Source: Bacteroidaceae bacterium (GTDB lineage: Bacteria; Bacteroidota; Bacteroidia; Bacteroidales; Bacteroidaceae). From it: a stretch of DNA of 64,000 bases. Numbering within the stretch: position 1 is the first letter of the stretch; each line of letters starts with the position of its first letter. The translations under genes and the position numbers were made by a program. The notes below the pieces were generated by a model. That model worked only from the letters and a program-made list of their open reading frames with translations, searched no databases and was not told the DNA's origin. The stretch is from the NCBI GenBank assembly GCA_017551925.1, contig JAFZKA010000056.1, forward strand, positions 1 through 64,000, written 5' to 3'. Shown here one piece after another: positions 10,797 to 64,000 of the stretch.

Positions 10797-12233
10797 TTAA
10801 CATTTTTTCTCAAGAACCGTGACGACCTCAACATGCTGGGTATGCGGGAACATATCGACCGGCTGCACCGCCGTCACCCTGTACCCCTGATCAAGCAATG
10901 CTATGTCACGCGCCTGAGTTGCAGGATTGCAACTTACATAAACAATACGTTTTGGAGCGGCTTCAAGTATCACATTCACCACATCGGCATGCATTCCTGC
11001 ACGTGGCGGGTCAGTGATGATGACATCAGGATTTCCGTGTTCTGCAATAAAGCCGGCGTTCAGAACGTCTTTCATATCGCCTGCAAAAAACTCGGTGTTT
11101 TCTATTCCGTTCACGCCGGCATTCACCTTGGCATCCTCAATAGCCTCCGGTACATACTCTATTCCGACCACCTTTTTCACACCTCCTGCCAGGAACAGTG
11201 CAATGGTTCCTGTTCCGGTATAAAGGTCATATACCACGTCATCAGGACCTAATGCAGCCAGATTCCTGACTGTCGAATAGAGTTTGTATGCCTGACGGCT
11301 GTTGGTCTGGAAAAATGATTTGGGACCTATTTTGAACTTGAGGTTCTCCATTGTCTCGTAAATGCATTCTTCACCACGGAAAACGTGCACGTCCAGGTCA
11401 CCGAATGTGTCGTTGCATTTGTTGTTGACCACATACAGGAGCGACGTTATTTCAGGAAAACTGTCAGACAGGTACTGCATGAGTCCCATGAACTGTTCCT
11501 GTTCGGCAGGAGTGGTCACCTTTGCCTGAACAAGCACCATAATCTGCCCTGTTGTTACAACACGGACCATCATGTCCCTTAGCACGCCCTCGAGCGAGCG
11601 CAGATTAATAAAAGGTATTCCATGCTCTACCGCATATGCGTATGCAGCATTTCTGATCCTGTCAGATATTTCATCCTGAAGTTTGCAACTGTTTATATGA
11701 AGCACCTTGTCAAATGCTCCGGGTATATGGAATCCCAGTCCGGGCTGCTTGCGCGGTGCCGTGTTGTCAGGATCGTCCAGGGCGTTCAGTTCATCGGCCG
11801 TAAGCCAACGCATATTGCTGAATGAATACTCAAGTTTGTTGCGGTAATGCATTACCTGAGCCGAACCCAGAATGGGACTGATTTCAGGCAGTTCAACCTT
11901 GGCTATCCTTGTAAGACAGTCAACCACCTGCTGCTGTTTGTATCTGAGTTGCTCCTCATAAGGCAGGTTCTGCCATTTGCAACCGCCGCATATACCAAAG
12001 TGTTCACAGAACGGTACTGCACGCACCTTGGAAAGTTCATGGAATTTAACCACGACCGCCTCGGCATAACTGTGCTTCTTTTTGAGTATCTTGAGATCAA
12101 CCACATCACCAGGCACTGCAAACGGGACAAAAACCACAAGATCATTGATACGTACCAATGCCTTGCCCTCGGCTGCCACACCGGTTATGGTTACATTCTC
12201 TATTATCGGCTGTTCGCGTCTTTTTCTGGACAT
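10797..12233 (-). CDS. rlmD: 23S rRNA (uracil-5-)-methyltransferase, RlmD/TrmA family
   Basis: The 478-residue protein has an N-terminal TRAM RNA-binding domain (about 10-70) and iron-sulfur cysteines (Cys76, Cys82, Cys85 in CEHFGICGGCKW, plus one near HINSCKLQ). The SAM-binding Rossmann fold follows (VYDLYTGTGTIALFLAGG), and the catalytic cysteine lies in YVSCNPATQARD. It methylates a uracil at C5 in 23S rRNA (U1939 for E. coli RlmD); the exact base here is inferred. The frame extends 11 codons upstream, but MSRKRR at 12233 is the normal start. Confidence 0.93.
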   Translation of the reverse strand: MSRKRREQPIIENVTITGVAAEGKALVRINDLVVFVPFAVPGDVVDLKILKKKHSYAEAVVVKFHELSKVRAVPFCEHFGICGGCKWQNLPYEEQLRYKQQQVVDCLTRIAKVELPEISPILGSAQVMHYRNKLEYSFSNMRWLTADELNALDDPDNTAPRKQPGLGFHIPGAFDKVLHINSCKLQDEISDRIRNAAYAYAVEHGIPFINLRSLEGVLRDMMVRVVTTGQIMVLVQAKVTTPAEQEQFMGLMQYLSDSFPEITSLLYVVNNKCNDTFGDLDVHVFRGEECIYETMENLKFKIGPKSFFQTNSRQAYKLYSTVRNLAALGPDDVVYDLYTGTGTIALFLAGGVKKVVGIEYVPEAIEDAKVNAGVNGIENTEFFAGDMKDVLNAGFIAEHGNPDVIITDPPRAGMHADVVNVILEAAPKRIVYVSCNPATQARDIALLDQGYRVTAVQPVDMFPHTQHVEVVTVLEKKC

Positions 12234-12252
12234 ATAAAAACTTTTGGGGCTG

Positions 12253-18097: not shown

Positions 18098-20102
18098 TGG
18101 ACCTGACTTTCTTCAATACAATAGCGGAACGGGACGGCAAATAAAGTTTCAACCACTCTTTTCTTGCCTTCTTATAGAGCGGATCAAAGAGAGTAAAATG
18201 TTCTACACCGTCATCAACACGGCCGTAACCTCCAAACTCTATACTGTCACTGTCAAGAATAGTCTTGTATGAGCCTTTTGGTACCAGAAAACCATAATCG
18301 GAGAATGAACGTGTGGGGTTGAAATTGAACACAAACACCAGATCACCGCGTCCGTAAGCCAGTACCTGGTCACCGTCATTGTGCCAATATTCCACCACAT
18401 CCTTGTTCTGAATATTCTTTGATGTGCCCAACAACCTTATCATGGCACGGTCAAAGTCACCCAACCAGCAGTACGCCAGTTGTTTGTTGTCAACAAGACT
18501 CCATTGGCGACGTGCGTATTTGTGACTCCAGCCGTTTCCCTCACGCGGAAAATCAATCCACTCGGGATGTCCGAACTCATTACCCATAAAGTTCAGATAG
18601 CCACCGTTTATGGTCGATGCGGTAACAAGCCTTATCATCTTGTGCAATGCAATGCCGCGTGATGTCACGTCATTGCCGCCGTCCTTGGTAAAATGCCAGT
18701 ACATATCGGCATCAATCAGACGGAATATGACCGTTTTGTCACCTACAAGAGCCTGATCATGACTCTCTACATATGATATGGTCTTTTCATCCTTGCGGCG
18801 GTTGGTAACCTCCCAGTAAATACCAGCCATGGACCAGTCTTCATCCTTGCGTTCCTTGATAGTCTTGATCCAGTAATCCGGTATATTCATAGCAAGGCGA
18901 TAGTCAAATCCAAAGCCGCCGTCTGTAAACGGGGCTGCCAGACCCGGCATACCGCTCACCTCCTCTGCTATGGTAATTGCATTAGGATTGAACTGATGTA
19001 TTACGCGGTTTGCCAACATCAGGTAGCAGATTGCATCATCATCCTGATGACCGTTGAAATAATCGTCATAATTGCAGAATGCCTCGCCCAGGCCGTGGCT
19101 GTAATAAAGCATTGAGGTTACTCCGTCAAAACGGAATCCGTCAAATCTGAATTCATCAAGCCAGTACTTGCAGTTGGAAAGCAGGTAATGCAAAACCTGG
19201 GTCTTGCCGTAGTCAAAGCAAAGGGAGCCCCAGGCGGAATGCTCATGACGGTCACCAGGCAGGAAATACTGATTCGGATCACCTGCAAGATTGCCCAGAC
19301 CCTCATACTCGTTCTTGACCGAATGGGAGTGAACAAGGTCCATAATTACCGATATGCCCATTCCATGAGCCGTATCAATCAGTTCCTTGAGTTCCTCAGG
19401 GGTACCGAAACGTGAAGAGGGAGCAAAGAAACTGGATACATGATATCCGAAACTGCCATAATACGGATGCTCCTGTATGGCCATAACCTGAATACAGTTG
19501 TAACCGTCCTCCTTGACACGCGGAAGTACATTATTCTTGAATTCTACATAGGTGCCCACACCCTCACGCTCCTGTGCCATACCCACATGACATTCATAAA
19601 TAAGCAGAGGATCCTGTTTGGGCTTGAAATCATTATGCCTGAAATGATACTCCTTTTTGGGGTCCCAGACCTGAGCCGAGAATATCTTGGACTGATCATC
19701 CTGAACAACCCTGCGACACCAGGCGGGAATACGGTCACCTTGACCGCCGTTCCATTTGACACGCATCTTATAGTGCTGCCCGTGACCGATCATCCCAAGA
19801 GGAATACGCAGTTCCCAATCACCGGAATCACTGATGCGCTTAAGACGGAACCGTTCCTGTTCCTCCCAGCCGGAAAAATCACCGATAAGGAATATCTCAG
19901 TGGCATTAGGCGCCCACTCCCTGAACACCCAGCCGCTGTCTGTCCGCTGAAGTCCGTAATAGAGATAGCCTGAAGCAAAATCCTTAAGACTCATCTTACC
20001 GCCGGTAAGTTCACTCTCACGCCACAATGCATGGTCATGTCTGCCCTCAATAGCGGCCTGATAAGGCGACAGCCAGGGGTCATTCTCTATTATCTTCAAC
20101 AT
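18078..20102 (-). CDS. glgB: 1,4-alpha-glucan branching enzyme
   Basis: The 674-residue GH13 enzyme makes alpha-1,6 branches in glycogen. It has an N-terminal CBM48 module (about 45-145) and a catalytic barrel with the nucleophile in DGFRFDGVTSMLYYSHG, the acid/base in ITIAEEVSGMPG and the third acidic residue in YVESHDQALVG. The eukaryote-like short N-terminus (LSPYQAAIEGRH) is common in Bacteroidetes. It starts within the last codons of the YhcH gene and overlaps the next gene, so it is translationally coupled within the operon. No other glg gene is nearby. Confidence 0.96.
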   Translation of the reverse strand: MLKIIENDPWLSPYQAAIEGRHDHALWRESELTGGKMSLKDFASGYLYYGLQRTDSGWVFREWAPNATEIFLIGDFSGWEEQERFRLKRISDSGDWELRIPLGMIGHGQHYKMRVKWNGGQGDRIPAWCRRVVQDDQSKIFSAQVWDPKKEYHFRHNDFKPKQDPLLIYECHVGMAQEREGVGTYVEFKNNVLPRVKEDGYNCIQVMAIQEHPYYGSFGYHVSSFFAPSSRFGTPEELKELIDTAHGMGISVIMDLVHSHSVKNEYEGLGNLAGDPNQYFLPGDRHEHSAWGSLCFDYGKTQVLHYLLSNCKYWLDEFRFDGFRFDGVTSMLYYSHGLGEAFCNYDDYFNGHQDDDAICYLMLANRVIHQFNPNAITIAEEVSGMPGLAAPFTDGGFGFDYRLAMNIPDYWIKTIKERKDEDWSMAGIYWEVTNRRKDEKTISYVESHDQALVGDKTVIFRLIDADMYWHFTKDGGNDVTSRGIALHKMIRLVTASTINGGYLNFMGNEFGHPEWIDFPREGNGWSHKYARRQWSLVDNKQLAYCWLGDFDRAMIRLLGTSKNIQNKDVVEYWHNDGDQVLAYGRGDLVFVFNFNPTRSFSDYGFLVPKGSYKTILDSDSIEFGGYGRVDDGVEHFTLFDPLYKKARKEWLKLYLPSRSAIVLKKVRSNGKKIM

Positions 20103-22347: not shown

Positions 22348-24707
22348 CAGAATGATTCTATTGAGTAATTATCAAGAACATCACCGTGCGTATTGGAATA
22401 ACCGGCGCACGGATCATAATCTTCAGGTATGTCAAAGACTGCGCTTGGCGAATAACCAAGATTGACAGAATCAGCATAGACCTTATCCATGAACATGCCC
22501 CAGACGGGAAGCGCGGCATGGGCGCCCTGACCATGGTCCATATCGTCAAAGTGAATGTCACGGTCTTCACCGCCAACCCAGCATCCGGCTACAAGATCAG
22601 GCGTATATCCCATAAACCAAGCGTCAGAGTGGTTATCGGTGGTACCTGTCTTGCCGGCACAGTCAACTTTATAGAAATTGGGGAACAGACGTGAACTGCG
22701 CAGACGTGTACCGGTTCCCTCATTTACCACTGCGCGCATCATATCAATCATCTTGTACGATGTCTCCTCACTTACCACCTCATTGCTGCGCGCTGTGAAC
22801 TGGGCAAGGATATTGCCTTCGGCATCCTCAATACGGGTAACATACAGCGGAGTTGTACGTATGCCGTGATTGACAAACGCGGTATAGGCACTGACCATCT
22901 CCTGAACAGAGACGTCACATGTTCCAAGGCAAAGTGAAGGAACAGGCTCTATTGCCTGATTCCTGAGACCGAACTCATGCAGAAGATTCACGAATGCGTA
23001 TGGGCTCAGATTACTCATCAGGTATGCCGTGACATTGTTATTGGAACGTGACAGACCCCATTTGAGAGTAACCAACTGACCAAGCATCTGCTTGCCATCA
23101 TCCTTGGGCTGCCATATCTGGCCTGATTCGGTAAGGATGGTCTGTGTCTGGTTTATGGTTTGGTCACAAGGTGAATAGCCACTCTCCATTGCCAGCGAAT
23201 ACAGGTACGGTTTCATTGTGGATCCTACCTGACGGCGGCCCGATGTAACCATATCATACTGGAATGCACGGTAGTCAGGACCTCCCACATACGCACGCAC
23301 AAAACCGCTTCTGGGCTCCATACACATAAAGCCCGTGCGCAGATAGAATTTCATGTAACGTATGGAATCAAGCGGTGTAAGAACCGTATCAATATCGCCG
23401 CCGTATGAGAAAACGGTCATCTGGCAAGGGGTATTGAAAACCTTGCGTATTGAATCCTGGCTGACGCCGCTGGACTGCAGACCACGGTAACGGTCTGTCT
23501 GCTGCATGGCGCGGTCCATAATACGGTTGACCTCTTCGGTCGTCAGTTTTGATGTGAACGGTGCTGATTTGACCTTTTTCTTTGCCTTGAAGAAATCAGG
23601 CTGAAGATAATCCTGAAGTTGTGCGGCAACAGCCTCCTCGGCATACCGCTGCATGCGGGAGTCAATAGTCACATAAACCTTGAGTCCGTCAGTATATAGA
23701 TTGTACGGCTTACCGTTCTGGTTCAGATTCTTGTTGCACCATCCGAACAGCGGATCCTGCTCCCAGTCCAACGAATCCTCATAGAACTGCTGCATCTGCC
23801 AGCCGCGATAGTTCTTGCGTTCAGGTTTCTGCTTTCTCAATATGGAACGCAGATACTCCCTGAAGTATGTAGCCTGCCCCACCTTATGGTCCACCTTGTG
23901 GTAATTCAGGACCAGTTCTGTAGCCTGAAGGGAATCTGTCTGTTCAGCCGAAAGGAAACCGGCTTTCTCCATCTGTCCCAACACCACATTACGGCGTTCG
24001 CATGTCAGTTCCTTGCGACGCAGCGGATTGTAAAGTGAAGAGTTCTTGCACATACCGATGAGCATGGCAGACTCCTCTGCATTCAGTTCTGAAGGCAACT
24101 TGCCGAAATATGTGTTTGAAGCAGTATAAATGCCTATGGCGTTGTTTCCAAAGTCATATTTGTTCAGATAGAGAGTAAGTATCTCCTCTTTAGTGTAGAA
24201 TCTTTCCAGTTTCACCGCTATGACCCACTCACTTGGTTTTTGCAACGCTCTCTGAACGGAACTGCGTGCCACATGTTCAGTGTACAACTGTTTGGCCAAC
24301 TGCTGCGTGAGCGTACTGCCTCCACCTGCGCTGTGCTGCCTGAGGATAACCCTCTTTACAACCGCACGGACCAGGGCTTTGAGATCTATTCCGCAGTGTT
24401 CACTGAAACGGACATCCTCTGTTGCAACCAGGGCTTTTACCAGATATGGAGACAATTCATCAAAATCAACCCAGACGCGGTTGTCCTCACTCCGCGCAAA
24501 AGTGCCGAGCACCACTCCATCGGCCGAAATGATCTGTGTAGCAAACTTATCTATCGGATTTTCTATATCCTCAAGTGACGGCATATTGCCGATCCACCCT
24601 TTACTTATACCTGAAAAAAAGAGATAAACTGCAACTGCCCCAAAGGCGAACAAGCCCCATAGCCAGATTACAATTCTGATTGCTGTCTTTTTGGAGAGAC
24701 CTTTCAT
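22347..24707 (-). CDS. Bifunctional penicillin-binding protein 1A
   Basis: The 786-residue protein has one N-terminal membrane helix (about 12-35). A GT51 glycosyltransferase domain follows (catalytic Glu in ALVATEDVRFSEHCGID; GGSTLTQQLAKQLY), then a transpeptidase domain with SxxK (GSTMKPYLY), SxN (SRSNNN) and KTGTT boxes. It polymerises and cross-links peptidoglycan. A TTG eight codons upstream keeps the frame open, but the ATG at 24707 is chosen. It is the first gene of a six-gene operon with KdsB, MORN, YhcH, GlgB and a membrane protein. Confidence 0.95.
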   Translation of the reverse strand: MKGLSKKTAIRIVIWLWGLFAFGAVAVYLFFSGISKGWIGNMPSLEDIENPIDKFATQIISADGVVLGTFARSEDNRVWVDFDELSPYLVKALVATEDVRFSEHCGIDLKALVRAVVKRVILRQHSAGGGSTLTQQLAKQLYTEHVARSSVQRALQKPSEWVIAVKLERFYTKEEILTLYLNKYDFGNNAIGIYTASNTYFGKLPSELNAEESAMLIGMCKNSSLYNPLRRKELTCERRNVVLGQMEKAGFLSAEQTDSLQATELVLNYHKVDHKVGQATYFREYLRSILRKQKPERKNYRGWQMQQFYEDSLDWEQDPLFGWCNKNLNQNGKPYNLYTDGLKVYVTIDSRMQRYAEEAVAAQLQDYLQPDFFKAKKKVKSAPFTSKLTTEEVNRIMDRAMQQTDRYRGLQSSGVSQDSIRKVFNTPCQMTVFSYGGDIDTVLTPLDSIRYMKFYLRTGFMCMEPRSGFVRAYVGGPDYRAFQYDMVTSGRRQVGSTMKPYLYSLAMESGYSPCDQTINQTQTILTESGQIWQPKDDGKQMLGQLVTLKWGLSRSNNNVTAYLMSNLSPYAFVNLLHEFGLRNQAIEPVPSLCLGTCDVSVQEMVSAYTAFVNHGIRTTPLYVTRIEDAEGNILAQFTARSNEVVSEETSYKMIDMMRAVVNEGTGTRLRSSRLFPNFYKVDCAGKTGTTDNHSDAWFMGYTPDLVAGCWVGGEDRDIHFDDMDHGQGAHAALPVWGMFMDKVYADSVNLGYSPSAVFDIPEDYDPCAGYSNTHGDVLDNYSIESF

Positions 24708-26988: not shown

Positions 26989-28269
26989 ATGAAAAGAGAT
27001 CAGGAGATTTTTGACATCATTGAGCGCGAACATCAGCGCCAGGCTAAAGGAATTGAATTGATTGCCTCTGAGAACTTTGTAAGCGATCAGGTTATGCAAG
27101 CCATGGGATCATGCCTCACCAACAAATATGCCGAAGGTTATCCCGGCAAGCGTTACTACGGTGGTTGTGAGGTTGTTGATGAGGCCGAGAGCCTTGCCAT
27201 TGCACGCATCAAGAAACTGTTCGGTGCAGAATATGCAAATGTTCAGCCCCATTCAGGTGCTCAGGCAAACGCAGCCGTACTTCAGGCTGTACTCATGCCG
27301 GGTGAGACATTCATGGGTCTCAACCTTGCACACGGCGGTCACCTGTCACATGGTTCTGCAGTCAATTCATCAGGTATCCTCTATCATGCCGTAGGCTATG
27401 ACCTGAATCCTGAGACCGGCCGTGTTGACTATGACAAGATGGAGCAACTGGCACTTGAGGTCAAACCGAAACTCATCATCGGCGGCGGTTCAGCCTATTC
27501 ACGCGAGTGGGACTACGCCCGCATGCGTAAGATTGCCGATGAGGTTGGCGCACTTCTTATGATAGATATGGCTCATCCTGCCGGTCTTATCGCTGCAGGT
27601 CTGCTTGAGAACCCTGTAAAGTACGCTCACATCGTAACCTCTACCACCCACAAGACACTGCGCGGTCCACGCGGCGGTATCATTCTGCTGGGTAAGGACT
27701 TCCAGGATCCACGCGGCCGCAAGACTCCTAAAGGTGAGATCAAGATGATGTCACAGCTCATTGACTCAGCCGTATTCCCCGGCACACAGGGCGGTCCTCT
27801 GGAACACGTTATCGCAGCCAAGGCCGTTGCATTCGGCGAGGCTCTTCAGCCTGAGTTCAAGGAGTATCAGATCCAGGTTCAGAAGAACGCCAAGAAACTG
27901 GCTGAGGAACTGACCAAGCGCGGATTCACCATCGTATCAGGCGGCACCGACAACCACAGCATGCTGGTTGACCTGCGTTCCAAGTACCCTGACCTGACCG
28001 GTAAGGTTGCCGAGAAGGCTCTTGTTGCAGCCGATATCACAGCCAACAAGAACATGGTTCCGTTTGACTCACGCAGCGCATTCCAGACTTCAGGTCTGCG
28101 TTTCGGCACCCCCGCCATCACAACTCGCGGTGCCAAGGAGGACATGATGGTAATCATTGCCGAACTCATTGAGGAGGTGCTGAACGCTCCCGAGGATGAG
28201 GCTGTAATTGCAAAGGTCCGTGCACGTGTAAACGACATGATGAAAGACTATCCCATGTTCGCTTATTGA
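26989..28269 (+). CDS. glyA: Serine hydroxymethyltransferase
   Basis: The 426-residue PLP enzyme interconverts serine and glycine while charging tetrahydrofolate with a one-carbon unit. The PLP-binding lysine lies in [14 protein letters not shown], and the N-terminal [12 protein letters not shown] motif is intact. It sits 27 bp after the OMP gene and ends in a strong terminator, so it may be the last gene of the pyrBI unit. Its codons are more optimised than those of its neighbours. Confidence 0.98.
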
Positions 28270-51390: not shown

Positions 51391-51640
51391 GGGAACTTTT
51401 TGGGGTATCAGTATCTGAAACTCCGCAGAACTAATAGTTTTGGGAGTCAACGTTCCGTGGCTACTCCGAACCTTTCCGGACCCTAAACGGCGAACTCCTC
51501 CATCCTAGCCACCTACGGTGTCTAGTCGTCGTCACACAAGCGCCGTTTTTAACGGGATCCTCCCAAGGTTCTACGCTTACGCCACTGCACTGATACTCCC
51601 AAAACTATTAGTTCTGCTACTGCAAATCGCAAGCTTATAC
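51391..51640. repeat. Fold-back repeat element, copy 1
   Basis: A non-coding element between the convergent lysA and hypothetical genes. Its left end carries the terminal inverted repeat (51393-51414) shared with copy 3. Stems: P1 51425-51447 with 51595-51617 (23 bp, perfect), P2 51457-51461 with 51581-51585, P3 51468-51474 with 51565-51571, P4 51478-51483 with 51554-51560 (one bulged A), P5 51485-51492 with 51541-51548, P6 51505-51513 with 51517-51525 (one mismatch). The apical loop region is nearly identical in all copies. The right terminal repeat is missing and the gene stop at 51661 follows closely. Not recognised as a known family. Confidence 0.8.
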
Positions 51641-61685: not shown

Positions 61686-61926
61686 CTCGCAAGAACAGTC
61701 AGTTTGGGGAGCCAACGCTCCTTGGCTACGCAGTCTCCCCTCCAGACCCTAAACGGCGAACTCCTCCATCTTAGCCACCTATGGTGTCTAATCGTCGTCG
61801 GACAAGCGCCGTTTTTAACGGGATCTTCCAGGGGCCCGCGCTTTACGCCAAGTCACTGATGCTCCCCAAACTGACTGTTCTGCTACTGCAAATAGCAAGC
61901 TTTAATACCGATACCCCAAAAAGTTC
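61686..61926. repeat. Fold-back repeat element, copy 2
   Basis: Second copy, same orientation as copy 1, between the acyl-CoA ligase stop and the lepA 3' end. Stems: P1 61692-61712 with 61861-61881 (21 bp, perfect), P2 61721-61726 with 61847-61852, P3 61737-61741 with 61830-61834, P4 61744-61749 with 61820-61826 (one bulged A), P5 61751-61758 with 61807-61814, P6 61771-61779 with 61783-61791 (one mismatch). The right terminal inverted repeat (61905-61926) complements the left ends of copies 1 and 3 at 21 of 22 positions. The left terminal repeat is missing. Confidence 0.8.
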
Positions 61927-61938
61927 TGTGCAATCAGC

Positions 61939-61964
61939 AAACACAGAAGGAACCGTCCCTATTG
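61939..61964 (-). repeat. REP-like unit next to lepA 3' end
   Basis: The reverse form of the GGGACGGTTCCTTCTG core lies between fold-back copy 2 and the lepA stop. Its counterpart sits on the other side of lepA in inverted orientation. Confidence 0.65.
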
Positions 61965-61966
61965 CG

Positions 61967-63748
61967 TCAATCTAGTTTGAGGACGGCGAGGAAGGCTTTC
62001 TGCGGAACCTCTACGTTACCGATTTGTTTCATGCGCTTCTTGCCCTTCTTCTGCTTTTCCAGAAGCTTGCGCTTACGTGATACGTCACCGCCGTAGCACT
62101 TGGCGGTAACATCCTTGCGCACCTGCTTTATGGTCTCGCGGGCAATGATCTTGGAGCCGATGGCTGCCTGGATTGCTATATCAAACTGCTGGCGCGGTAT
62201 GAGTTCCTTGAGTTTCTCGCACATGCGGCGGCCCAGGTCATAGGCATTATCCACATGGGTAAGGGTTGAAAGAGCATCCACAGGCTCACCGTTAAGCAGA
62301 ATGTCCAGTTTTATCAGTTTTGACGGACGGTACCCTGCGGGATGGTAGTCAAATGATGCGTAACCCTTGGATATGCTCTTGAGTTTGTCATAGAAATCAA
62401 TCACTATCTCACCTAATGGCAGTTTGAAGTAAATCTCCACACGGTTACCGGCTATGAACTGCTGCTTTACCAGCTCTCCGCGCTTGTCAAGACACAGCGT
62501 CATGATGGGGCCTATGTAATCAGTAGTGGTTATGATTGATGCGTCTATGTATGGCTCTTCAATGTGGTCAATCAGCGTGAGATCAGGCATACCGCTGGGG
62601 TTATGAACCTCGGTAGCATTACCCTGCTTGTCATAGACCATATATGATACGTTAGGCACTGTGGTGATAACACTCATGTCAAACTCACGGTCCAGACGCT
62701 CCTGCACAATCTCCATATGCAACAGGCCCAGGAATCCGCAACGGAATCCGAATCCCAGCGCAGCCGATGACTCAGGGAAGAAACTCAGTGAGGCATCGTT
62801 CAACTGAAGCTTTTCAAGTGAGGCACGCAGGTCCTCAAACTCATCGGCCTCAATGGGATATACGCCGGCAAACACCATTGGTTTGGACTCCTCGAATCCT
62901 GCAATGGCCTTGTCACAGGGACGGGCCACATGAGTAATGGTATCGCCCACCTTAACCTCGGTCGATGTCTTGATACCGGATATGATGTAGCCCACATCTC
63001 CTGTGGTCATCACGTCACGCGGCACCATATCCATACGGAGCACGCCTACCTCATCGGCATCATACTCCTTACCGGTGTTGAAGAACTTTACCTTGTCACC
63101 CTTGCGGATGCAGCCGTTCTCGATCTTGAAATATGCTATGATTCCGCGGAACGAGTTGAATACGGAGTCAAATATCAGCGCTTGCAGCGGAGCATCGGGA
63201 TCACCTACCGGGCACGGAACACGCTCCACGATGGCGTTCAAAATCTCCTCAACGCCCATTCCTGTGCGGGCCGATGCACGTATTATCTCATCGCGCTTGC
63301 AGCCTATCAGTTCAATGATTTCATCCTCAACCTCATCAGGCATGGCGCTCTGCATATCACACTTGTTGATTACAGGTATGATTTCCAGATCGTGTTCAAT
63401 GGCCATATAGAGGTTACTAATGGTCTGTGCCTGAACACCCTGTGTAGCATCTACCACCAGGATTGCGCCCTCACAGGCTGCGATTGAACGGCTTACCTCA
63501 TATGAAAAGTCAACATGTCCCGGAGTGTCAATCAGGTTCAGAATGTATTTCTCGCCTTTGTACTCATACTCCATCTGGATGGCGTGACTCTTGATGGTAA
63601 TGCCGCGCTCTTTCTCCAGGTCCATATCATCGAGCATCTGACCCTCGGTGATATTGATAGTGTGGGTATACTCCAGCAGACGGTCAGCCAGCGTTGACTT
63701 ACCGTGATCAATATGTGCTATTATGCAAAAGTTGCGGATGTTCTTCAT
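61967..63748 (-). CDS. lepA: Elongation factor 4 (LepA)
   Basis: The 593-residue translational GTPase has G1 [15 protein letters not shown]2/G3 with [16 protein letters not shown]4 [10 protein letters not shown], and the LepA-specific C-terminal domain ([25 protein letters not shown]). It acts on stalled or back-translocated ribosomes. Start [13 protein letters not shown] at 63748 is the family start; the frame opens seven codons earlier. The gene stands alone, flanked on both sides by REP-like units and fold-back repeat copies. Confidence 0.97.
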
Positions 63749-63766
63749 ATCTGAGTTTTTGCACTG

Positions 63767-63774
63767 CAAAATTA
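63767..63774 (-). promoter_or_regulatory. -7 promoter box of lepA
   Basis: TAATTTTG on the minus strand, 18 bases upstream of the lepA ATG, fits TAnnTTTG. Confidence 0.5.
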
Positions 63775-63840: not shown

Positions 63841-64000
63841 TGGGGAACTTTTTGGGGTATCAGTATCTGAAACAACGCAGAACAGTCAGTTTGAGGAGCC
63901 AACGCTCCTTGGCTACGCAGTCTCCCCTCCAGACCCTAAACGGCGAACTCCTCCATCTTAGCCACCTATGGTGTCTAATCGTCGTCGAACAAGCGCCGTT
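63841..64000. repeat. Fold-back repeat element, copy 3 (cut by the window end)
   Basis: The third copy has an intact left terminal inverted repeat (63845-63866), the left P1 arm (63877-63899, one base different from copy 2), and the P2-P5 left strands and P6 hairpin as in copy 2. The window ends inside the right P5 strand, so the right half is not visible. Same orientation as copies 1 and 2. Confidence 0.8.

Follow-up and report, generated by a model that had tools for sequence, protein, structure and literature searches.

A non-coding element of about 220 bases is scattered through the intergenic DNA of the source genome (G000; 2.6 Mb, 97% complete), where it occurs in at least 41 copies whose stems change in sequence from one copy to another while staying paired. 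The explanation that we favour, with a probability of roughly one half, is that of a non-autonomous mobile repeat, similar in kind to REPINs, which is recognised as a folded single strand, most likely of DNA, by a factor encoded elsewhere. A preceding sequence-only reading had proposed from two copies that this is a dispersed fold-back family of no known kind, under selection for its folded form. Given the number of copies in the genome and the strong covariation observed over 131 aligned copies, chance is excluded and the family is real; it has no match in Rfam, and selection on the fold is borne out by the covariation and by a test based on the distance between copies, both described below.

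The window, i.e. the whole stretch of 64,000 nucleotides that was analysed, holds three copies, of which the first two lie where they had originally been placed (51391-51640 and 61686-61926) and the third (63843-64089) overruns the window end. Copies 1 and 2 fold with z-scores of -7.3 and -6.9, respectively, and none of 200 dinucleotide shuffles folded as well. Their parts are as follows:

51393-51421, no strand assigned: left arm of the outer stem P0 of copy 1, GAACTTTTTGGGGTATCAGTATCTGAAAC (from the sequence and a pattern search); the right P0 arm of this copy is eroded
51425-51447, minus: plus-strand left arm of P1, copy 1 (exact self-match to 51595-51617, and fold)
51448-51594, minus (the folded strand): inner stems and internal loops of copy 1 (covariation, and a covariance model match at 51439-51603 on the minus strand, 176 bits)
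51493-51537, minus: apical module of copy 1 (common to three other genera), reading on the minus strand as a tandem G.A internal loop (GACGAC...GGAGGA) with a hairpin whose loop is C(GTA)G
51595-51617, minus: plus-strand right arm of P1, copy 1 (self-match)
51618-51639, minus: conserved 5' terminus of copy 1 as read on the minus strand, about 22 nt with a TTTGCAG-type motif (information content equals background beyond -22)
61693-61711, minus: plus-strand left arm of P1, copy 2 (sequence, fold and comparison of copies 1 and 2); this copy lacks a left P0 arm
61712-61861, minus: inner stems and apical module of copy 2 (covariance model match at 61704-61869, minus, 168.7 bits)
61862-61880, minus: plus-strand right arm of P1, copy 2 (sequence and fold)
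61905-61926, no strand assigned: right arm of P0, copy 2 (pattern match at 61905-61925, minus)
63843-64000, continuing to about 64112 of the contig, minus: copy 3 (sequence match at 63843-64089), with both P0 arms present (63846-63866 and 64092-64112, by pattern search)

When copies 1 and 2 are compared, every differing pair of P1 is indeed compensated, as had been claimed, although five pairs differ (5/5 compensated) rather than six. Compensated changes are also present in the inner stems: G-C to T-A at 43-171, T-A to C-G at 59-151, G-C to A-T at 64-146, and the C-G to T-A change announced for P6, which falls one pair outside the scored helix. What does not quite hold is the statement that no change is uncompensated, since five other inner positions (34-181, 39-175, 55-155, 56-154 and 60-150) are one-sided or unpaired on the plus strand, several of them being G-U on the minus strand, and direct reading finds the outer P1 foot of copy 2 (61690-61692) altered on one arm only. 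Copies 2 and 3 are direct repeats that bracket a lepA-like gene (61967-63769; 61686-64112 in all), and because much of their right flank is common, this pair probably arose by local duplication or was made alike by gene conversion.

In the source genome the BLAST search gave 44 places, from which we subtracted two self-matches between P1 arms, one match to P0 alone and a second match to a copy that had been split in two, leaving 40; one further diverged copy on contig 16 brings the count to at least 41. Copies are carried by 18 of the 25 genus genomes (17 of the 24 members besides the source) and by none, in the DNA search, of the 16 genomes from other families that made up the rest of the 40 relatives. 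About 100 copies were taken from relatives, giving the alignment of 131 full copies. A covariance model search, which the sequence-only reading had suggested, found the family in other Bacteroidales genomes too, 4 of 198 across the order being positive: the source, two genomes representing two genera of one other family (G098 and G202), and one from a third family (G113). In these last three the apical motif closely resembles that of the genus copies, and P5 has a different sequence yet is still paired. Six genomes of the same family that belong to other genera had no covariance model match, so that horizontal transfer or repeated loss is likely to underlie the patchy spread. Class-wide matches in other orders (G231, G310) were weak and lacked the motif and were dismissed; one model, R2, had a poor structure (3 pairs) and was usable as a sequence profile only. 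An exact pattern search of viral contigs gave no match, the Rfam search of the window returned only RNase P and a tRNA, and copy 1 compared with 4227 Rfam families had no match even at E-values up to 5. Several copies sit at contig ends, and such repeats are unannotated in Bacteroidales genomes, to which the element adds a family that a covariance model can detect. On three contigs of G202 (12, 25 and 50; L209-L211) copies are dense, partly tandem, near contig ends and beside AAA/DUF4143 ATPase genes.

Among 48 diverse copies, both-sided changes were observed at 32 of the 48 predicted pairs. Stem cells were paired in 94.7% of cases, vs. 84.3% after shuffling and 39-54% when partners were slid, and the covariation score was 0.363, vs. 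0.174 +/- 0.005 (shuffled) and 0.065-0.125 (slid). These controls leave the relatedness of the copies in, and we therefore also tested every pair of positions in 114 dereplicated copies (G-test, average-product correction), supplying no structure. The top ten pairs of this test all fall in stems, and 29 of its 60 strongest are pairs of the fold. Three more strong signals (84-117, 82-119 and 90-113) are nested in the apical loop, outside the predicted structure.

The compensated stems of a dispersed repeat can reveal which strand and which loops are recognised, and here it is the minus strand that folds, the one originally drawn being its weaker-folding complement. Non-Watson-Crick cells in the stems are A:C, i.e. 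G-U on the minus strand, in 277 cases vs. 104 G:T, and the folding energy is lower on the minus strand in 130 of the 131 copies (mean -102 vs. -87 kcal/mol), although these counts come from related copies and are not independent. With DNA energy parameters the minus strand still folds better (-51.7 vs. -45.6). On this strand the three additional G-test signals become interpretable, as a tandem G.A internal loop: the apical pairs read, in order, G.A (104 copies) or A.C (25), A.G (122), C-G (90) or G-C (36), G.A (118) and A.G (117), the second G.A position being G-C or C-G instead in 12 copies. The apical region thus has a single covarying Watson-Crick pair set between two tandem G.A steps. Another A.G/G.A exchange, in 85 and 39 copies, lies in the apical stem above, and the loop is C(GNA)G in 105 of the 131 copies. 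As had been proposed, the apex is the best conserved part of the element. Its motif, the tandem G.A around a C-G pair and the C(GNA)G loop, can serve as bait for a mobilising or binding protein. A local alternative hairpin, CCGTT-AAG-AACGG, occurs in most genus copies, yet it is shortened where P5 has changed and lost in G113, and we do not claim it.

In the mechanism that we propose, the non-autonomous element would spread through intergenic DNA by way of one strand (minus in the window), which when single-stranded folds up as a long hairpin with interruptions, made up, in order, of the 5' end of about 22 nt, a 22-bp P1, the inner stems, the tandem G.A internal loop and the apical C(GNA)G hairpin. 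A factor encoded elsewhere would recognise this fold, most likely in single-stranded DNA exposed at replication, and copy or insert the element. Spread would then be open to well-folded copies only, so that in spreading lineages stems change in sequence and stay paired, while resident copies may drift on one arm and may be lost when replication slips from one short repeat of the arms to another. We infer mobility as the cause of the dispersal and, because the minus strand is folded and the copies are dispersed, a trans-acting factor that recognises it. That the recognised form is DNA rather than RNA is inferred as well: single-stranded DNA is moderately favoured because there is no transcription logic, G-U is low and the loop is GNA; RNA would account just as well for the minus-strand use of G-U and for the conservation of loop bases.

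These same features are what one would expect if the element were a structured RNA of about 200 nt with a function in a transcript, whose copies would spread because this RNA, or else its surrounding DNA, is useful or mobile itself. Such an RNA, which we consider possible but the less probable choice, would account for the preference for G-U on the minus strand and the stable fold, for the conserved tandem G.A loop and unpaired bases, and for a motif common to three further genera. However, G-U makes up 3.5% of stem cells on the folded strand, which is low for RNA helices, and no Rfam family matches. Gene orientation around the copies is unbiased (35 convergent, 33 and 30 co-directional, 24 divergent), and outside the element no sequence is conserved, neither promoter nor terminator, so that transcription from the neighbouring gene would miss the folded strand in about half of the copies. 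A cis-acting leader or terminator was likewise rejected, as there is no orientation bias to genes. No recurring neighbour gene was observed within about 1.2-1.5 kb of the copies. The apex, moreover, has no GNRA or UNCG tetraloop but a GNA triloop, which is typical of stable hairpins of DNA. Since GNA loops form extraordinarily stable DNA mini-hairpins (PMC4686876), this may be taken as a lead towards DNA, no proof of it.

A mobile folded single strand could also represent an undescribed class, which replicates through a strand-specific folded form (DNA, or RNA copied in some other way), is recognised at its tandem G.A apex, a motif conserved across several Bacteroidales families, and is moved by a novel enzyme; we regard this only as a tentative proposal. 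For now the element is filed among small, folded, dispersed bacterial elements, and the finding of a new enzyme could set it apart as its own class. The family also makes it testable whether bacterial repeats owe their lasting fold to selection for mobility or for host function.

At one site with flanks 98-99% identical in two species, each species has a different version of the element, followed by two extra tandem segments of the 3' arm. Extra tandem 3'-arm copies adjoining an intact element were observed at L137 and L146, 3' of the element, and also at L196, L121 and L063; repeated insertion and deletion of elements at a single site would give such an appearance. In three pairs of neighbourhoods (L052/L138, L090/L103 and L026/L058) the element has opposite orientations in different species. 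Deletion derivatives end in short direct repeats of the arms (GGAGC, GGA), as replication slippage would leave. At one G021 locus the element is missing in six relatives, in which the intergenic sequence is too diverged to place the insertion point. No clean target-site duplication or exact empty site was recovered, the sole empty site being diverged; the joined-flank query took in the first six of ten prepared loci. As 48 locus pairs have both flanks in common between species, many copies are old and vertically inherited. These two results, and the fact that the searches brought up no mobilising enzyme, speak against the mobile reading.

The closest known kind of element is the REPIN, and one may ask whether these are REPINs moved by a RAYT (REP-associated tyrosine transposase). 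The lifestyle is alike, both being dispersed, extragenic, hairpin-forming as a long single strand and present in many copies per genome; compensatory changes in stems are common in REPINs (PMC3116915), and RAYT-sized Y1 genes exist in several genus genomes. Nevertheless, a search of the source genome for PF01797 (Y1/RAYT) gave no match despite the at least 41 copies, in an assembly that is 97% complete and of a type (genome bins) that may miss a gene. At three of the four genus Y1 loci that were read GGGACGGTTC palindromes lie on both sides, and the element at none of the four, so the RAYTs of the genus pair with another palindrome. REPINs, furthermore, have two conserved inverted ends and a variable middle, whereas in this element it is the stems, including their ends, that vary, and the middle and apex that are conserved; the element is also about 220 nt long, with conserved internal loops, and no cognate RAYT was found for it. 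It therefore fails the definition of a REPIN, no match to a described REPIN emerged, and movement by a RAYT is improbable. At L177, L179 and L181, RAYT-type Y1 genes lie between GGGACGGTTC palindromes, and no Y1 locus read has a significant match to the element.

Other systems resemble the favoured mobile single strand in part. So far as the account in PMC2727003 goes, integron attC sites have a structure more conserved than their sequence and act through the bottom strand as a folded single strand, and the element shares this strand-specific form and the precedence of structure over sequence; in contrast to attC, it is single and dispersed, with no cassette array seen and an apex that is conserved rather than variable. 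Copies of the element sit between ordinary genes. Matches about 2 kb apart in G202 had raised the possibility of an attC-like cassette array, which was rejected since the intervening genes are of mixed kinds (esterase, AraC regulator, BACON and ATPase proteins); a link to DUF4143 ATPases was also dropped, as these lie beside two G202 copies and not near those of the source genome. In IS200/IS605 elements secondary structures at single-stranded DNA ends are the recognised form, as presented in PMC6006769, but, unlike these and their derived miniature (HUH) elements, the copies in the source genome come with no Y1 transposase, no linked gene and no conserved target at the 5' end. The element could also be a described MITE of a DDE transposase, as no clean insertion site was recovered; its inverted arms vary between copies, and the neighbourhoods of about 1.2-1.5 kb that were compared have no recurring gene. 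Like structured RNAs, the element combines stems that covary with a non-canonical loop that is conserved, yet it matches no Rfam family. Derivation from a retroelement (group II intron or retron) was rejected because the source genome had no PF00078 (reverse transcriptase) match; of the 16 genus genomes searched only one (G001) had such a match, and it is itself free of the element.

Compensated pairs could in principle also arise without selection, by arm-to-arm copying, i.e. template switching in a quasi-palindrome, an alternative raised by the sequence-only reading. Every copy was compared with every other, and the compensated and the one-sided differences were tallied in bins of distance. 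In the inner stems the ratio of compensated to one-sided differences was 0.0 at 1-3% (0 vs. 10), 0.11 at 3-6% (4 vs. 35), 1.15 at 6-10%, 1.85 at 10-15% and about 2.2-2.5 beyond; in P1 it was 0.33, 1.19 (38 vs. 32 at 3-6%), 1.17 and 2.47 in the same bins, and then 3.3-3.8. Mostly one-sided changes, which the sequence-only reading had named as a refutation, are thus seen only among very close copies: one-sided changes arise first and are later lost or compensated, the reverse of what fast arm-to-arm copying would give, and since distant copies differ mostly by compensated changes, the pattern fits selection on the fold rather than arm-to-arm copying. P1 may include some contribution from copying or version replacement, because its ratio climbs at shorter distance. 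As a general explanation, however, copying is very unlikely: although P1 is almost wholly Watson-Crick (93%), shows those 38 compensated differences at short distance and sometimes has adjacent changes in blocks, the inner stems, for which copying is largely excluded, have nearly no compensated changes in close copies and many at larger distance, mismatched internal loops that copying would erase are kept, and the mismatches are strand-asymmetric.

The ends of the element can be placed from 83 copies that lack the outer stem, in which conservation, followed along the minus strand, sets in 22 nt ahead of P1, with a consensus of roughly GCAAAGGTTTCCATTTGCAGGA, and fades about 4 nt past P1 (GGTG). 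Compared with the unpaired GTAG-type tag at the foot of REP palindromes, the minus-strand 5' foot here reads G-N-A-G (GTAG, GGAG or GAAG), with a weak preference at N. Pairing of the P0 type was found in 44 of 129 copies vs. 5% in mispaired controls, P0 often being GAACTTTTTGGGGTATC...; some P0-bearing copies are nested again within GGGACGGTTC palindromes. As P0 in the source genome also encloses quite different interiors, we treat it as an outer module or a preferred site, not as a defining part.

One such interior, in the same P0 palindrome, is a second structured element, observed on contigs 8 (11978-12237, L228) and 49 (27870-28125, L230) of the source genome and further on contigs 4 (18821-19004, L227) and 2 (22485-22668, L226). 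It folds into several arms, among them a long hairpin that differs from copy to copy, and has a strong strand preference of its own (-134 vs. -111, -125 vs. -99 and -116 vs. -92 kcal/mol) and no convincing match in Rfam. The GGGACGGTTC palindromes flank or enclose many copies of the main element, for instance near 61940-61965 of the window. Finally, at two loci from two species (L019 and L103) the 3' arm of the element is interrupted, in nearly the same place, by a closely similar short insert (CCTTTTGCGTAGCAAAATAAAA...GGCTACGCGCAGCGTAG).
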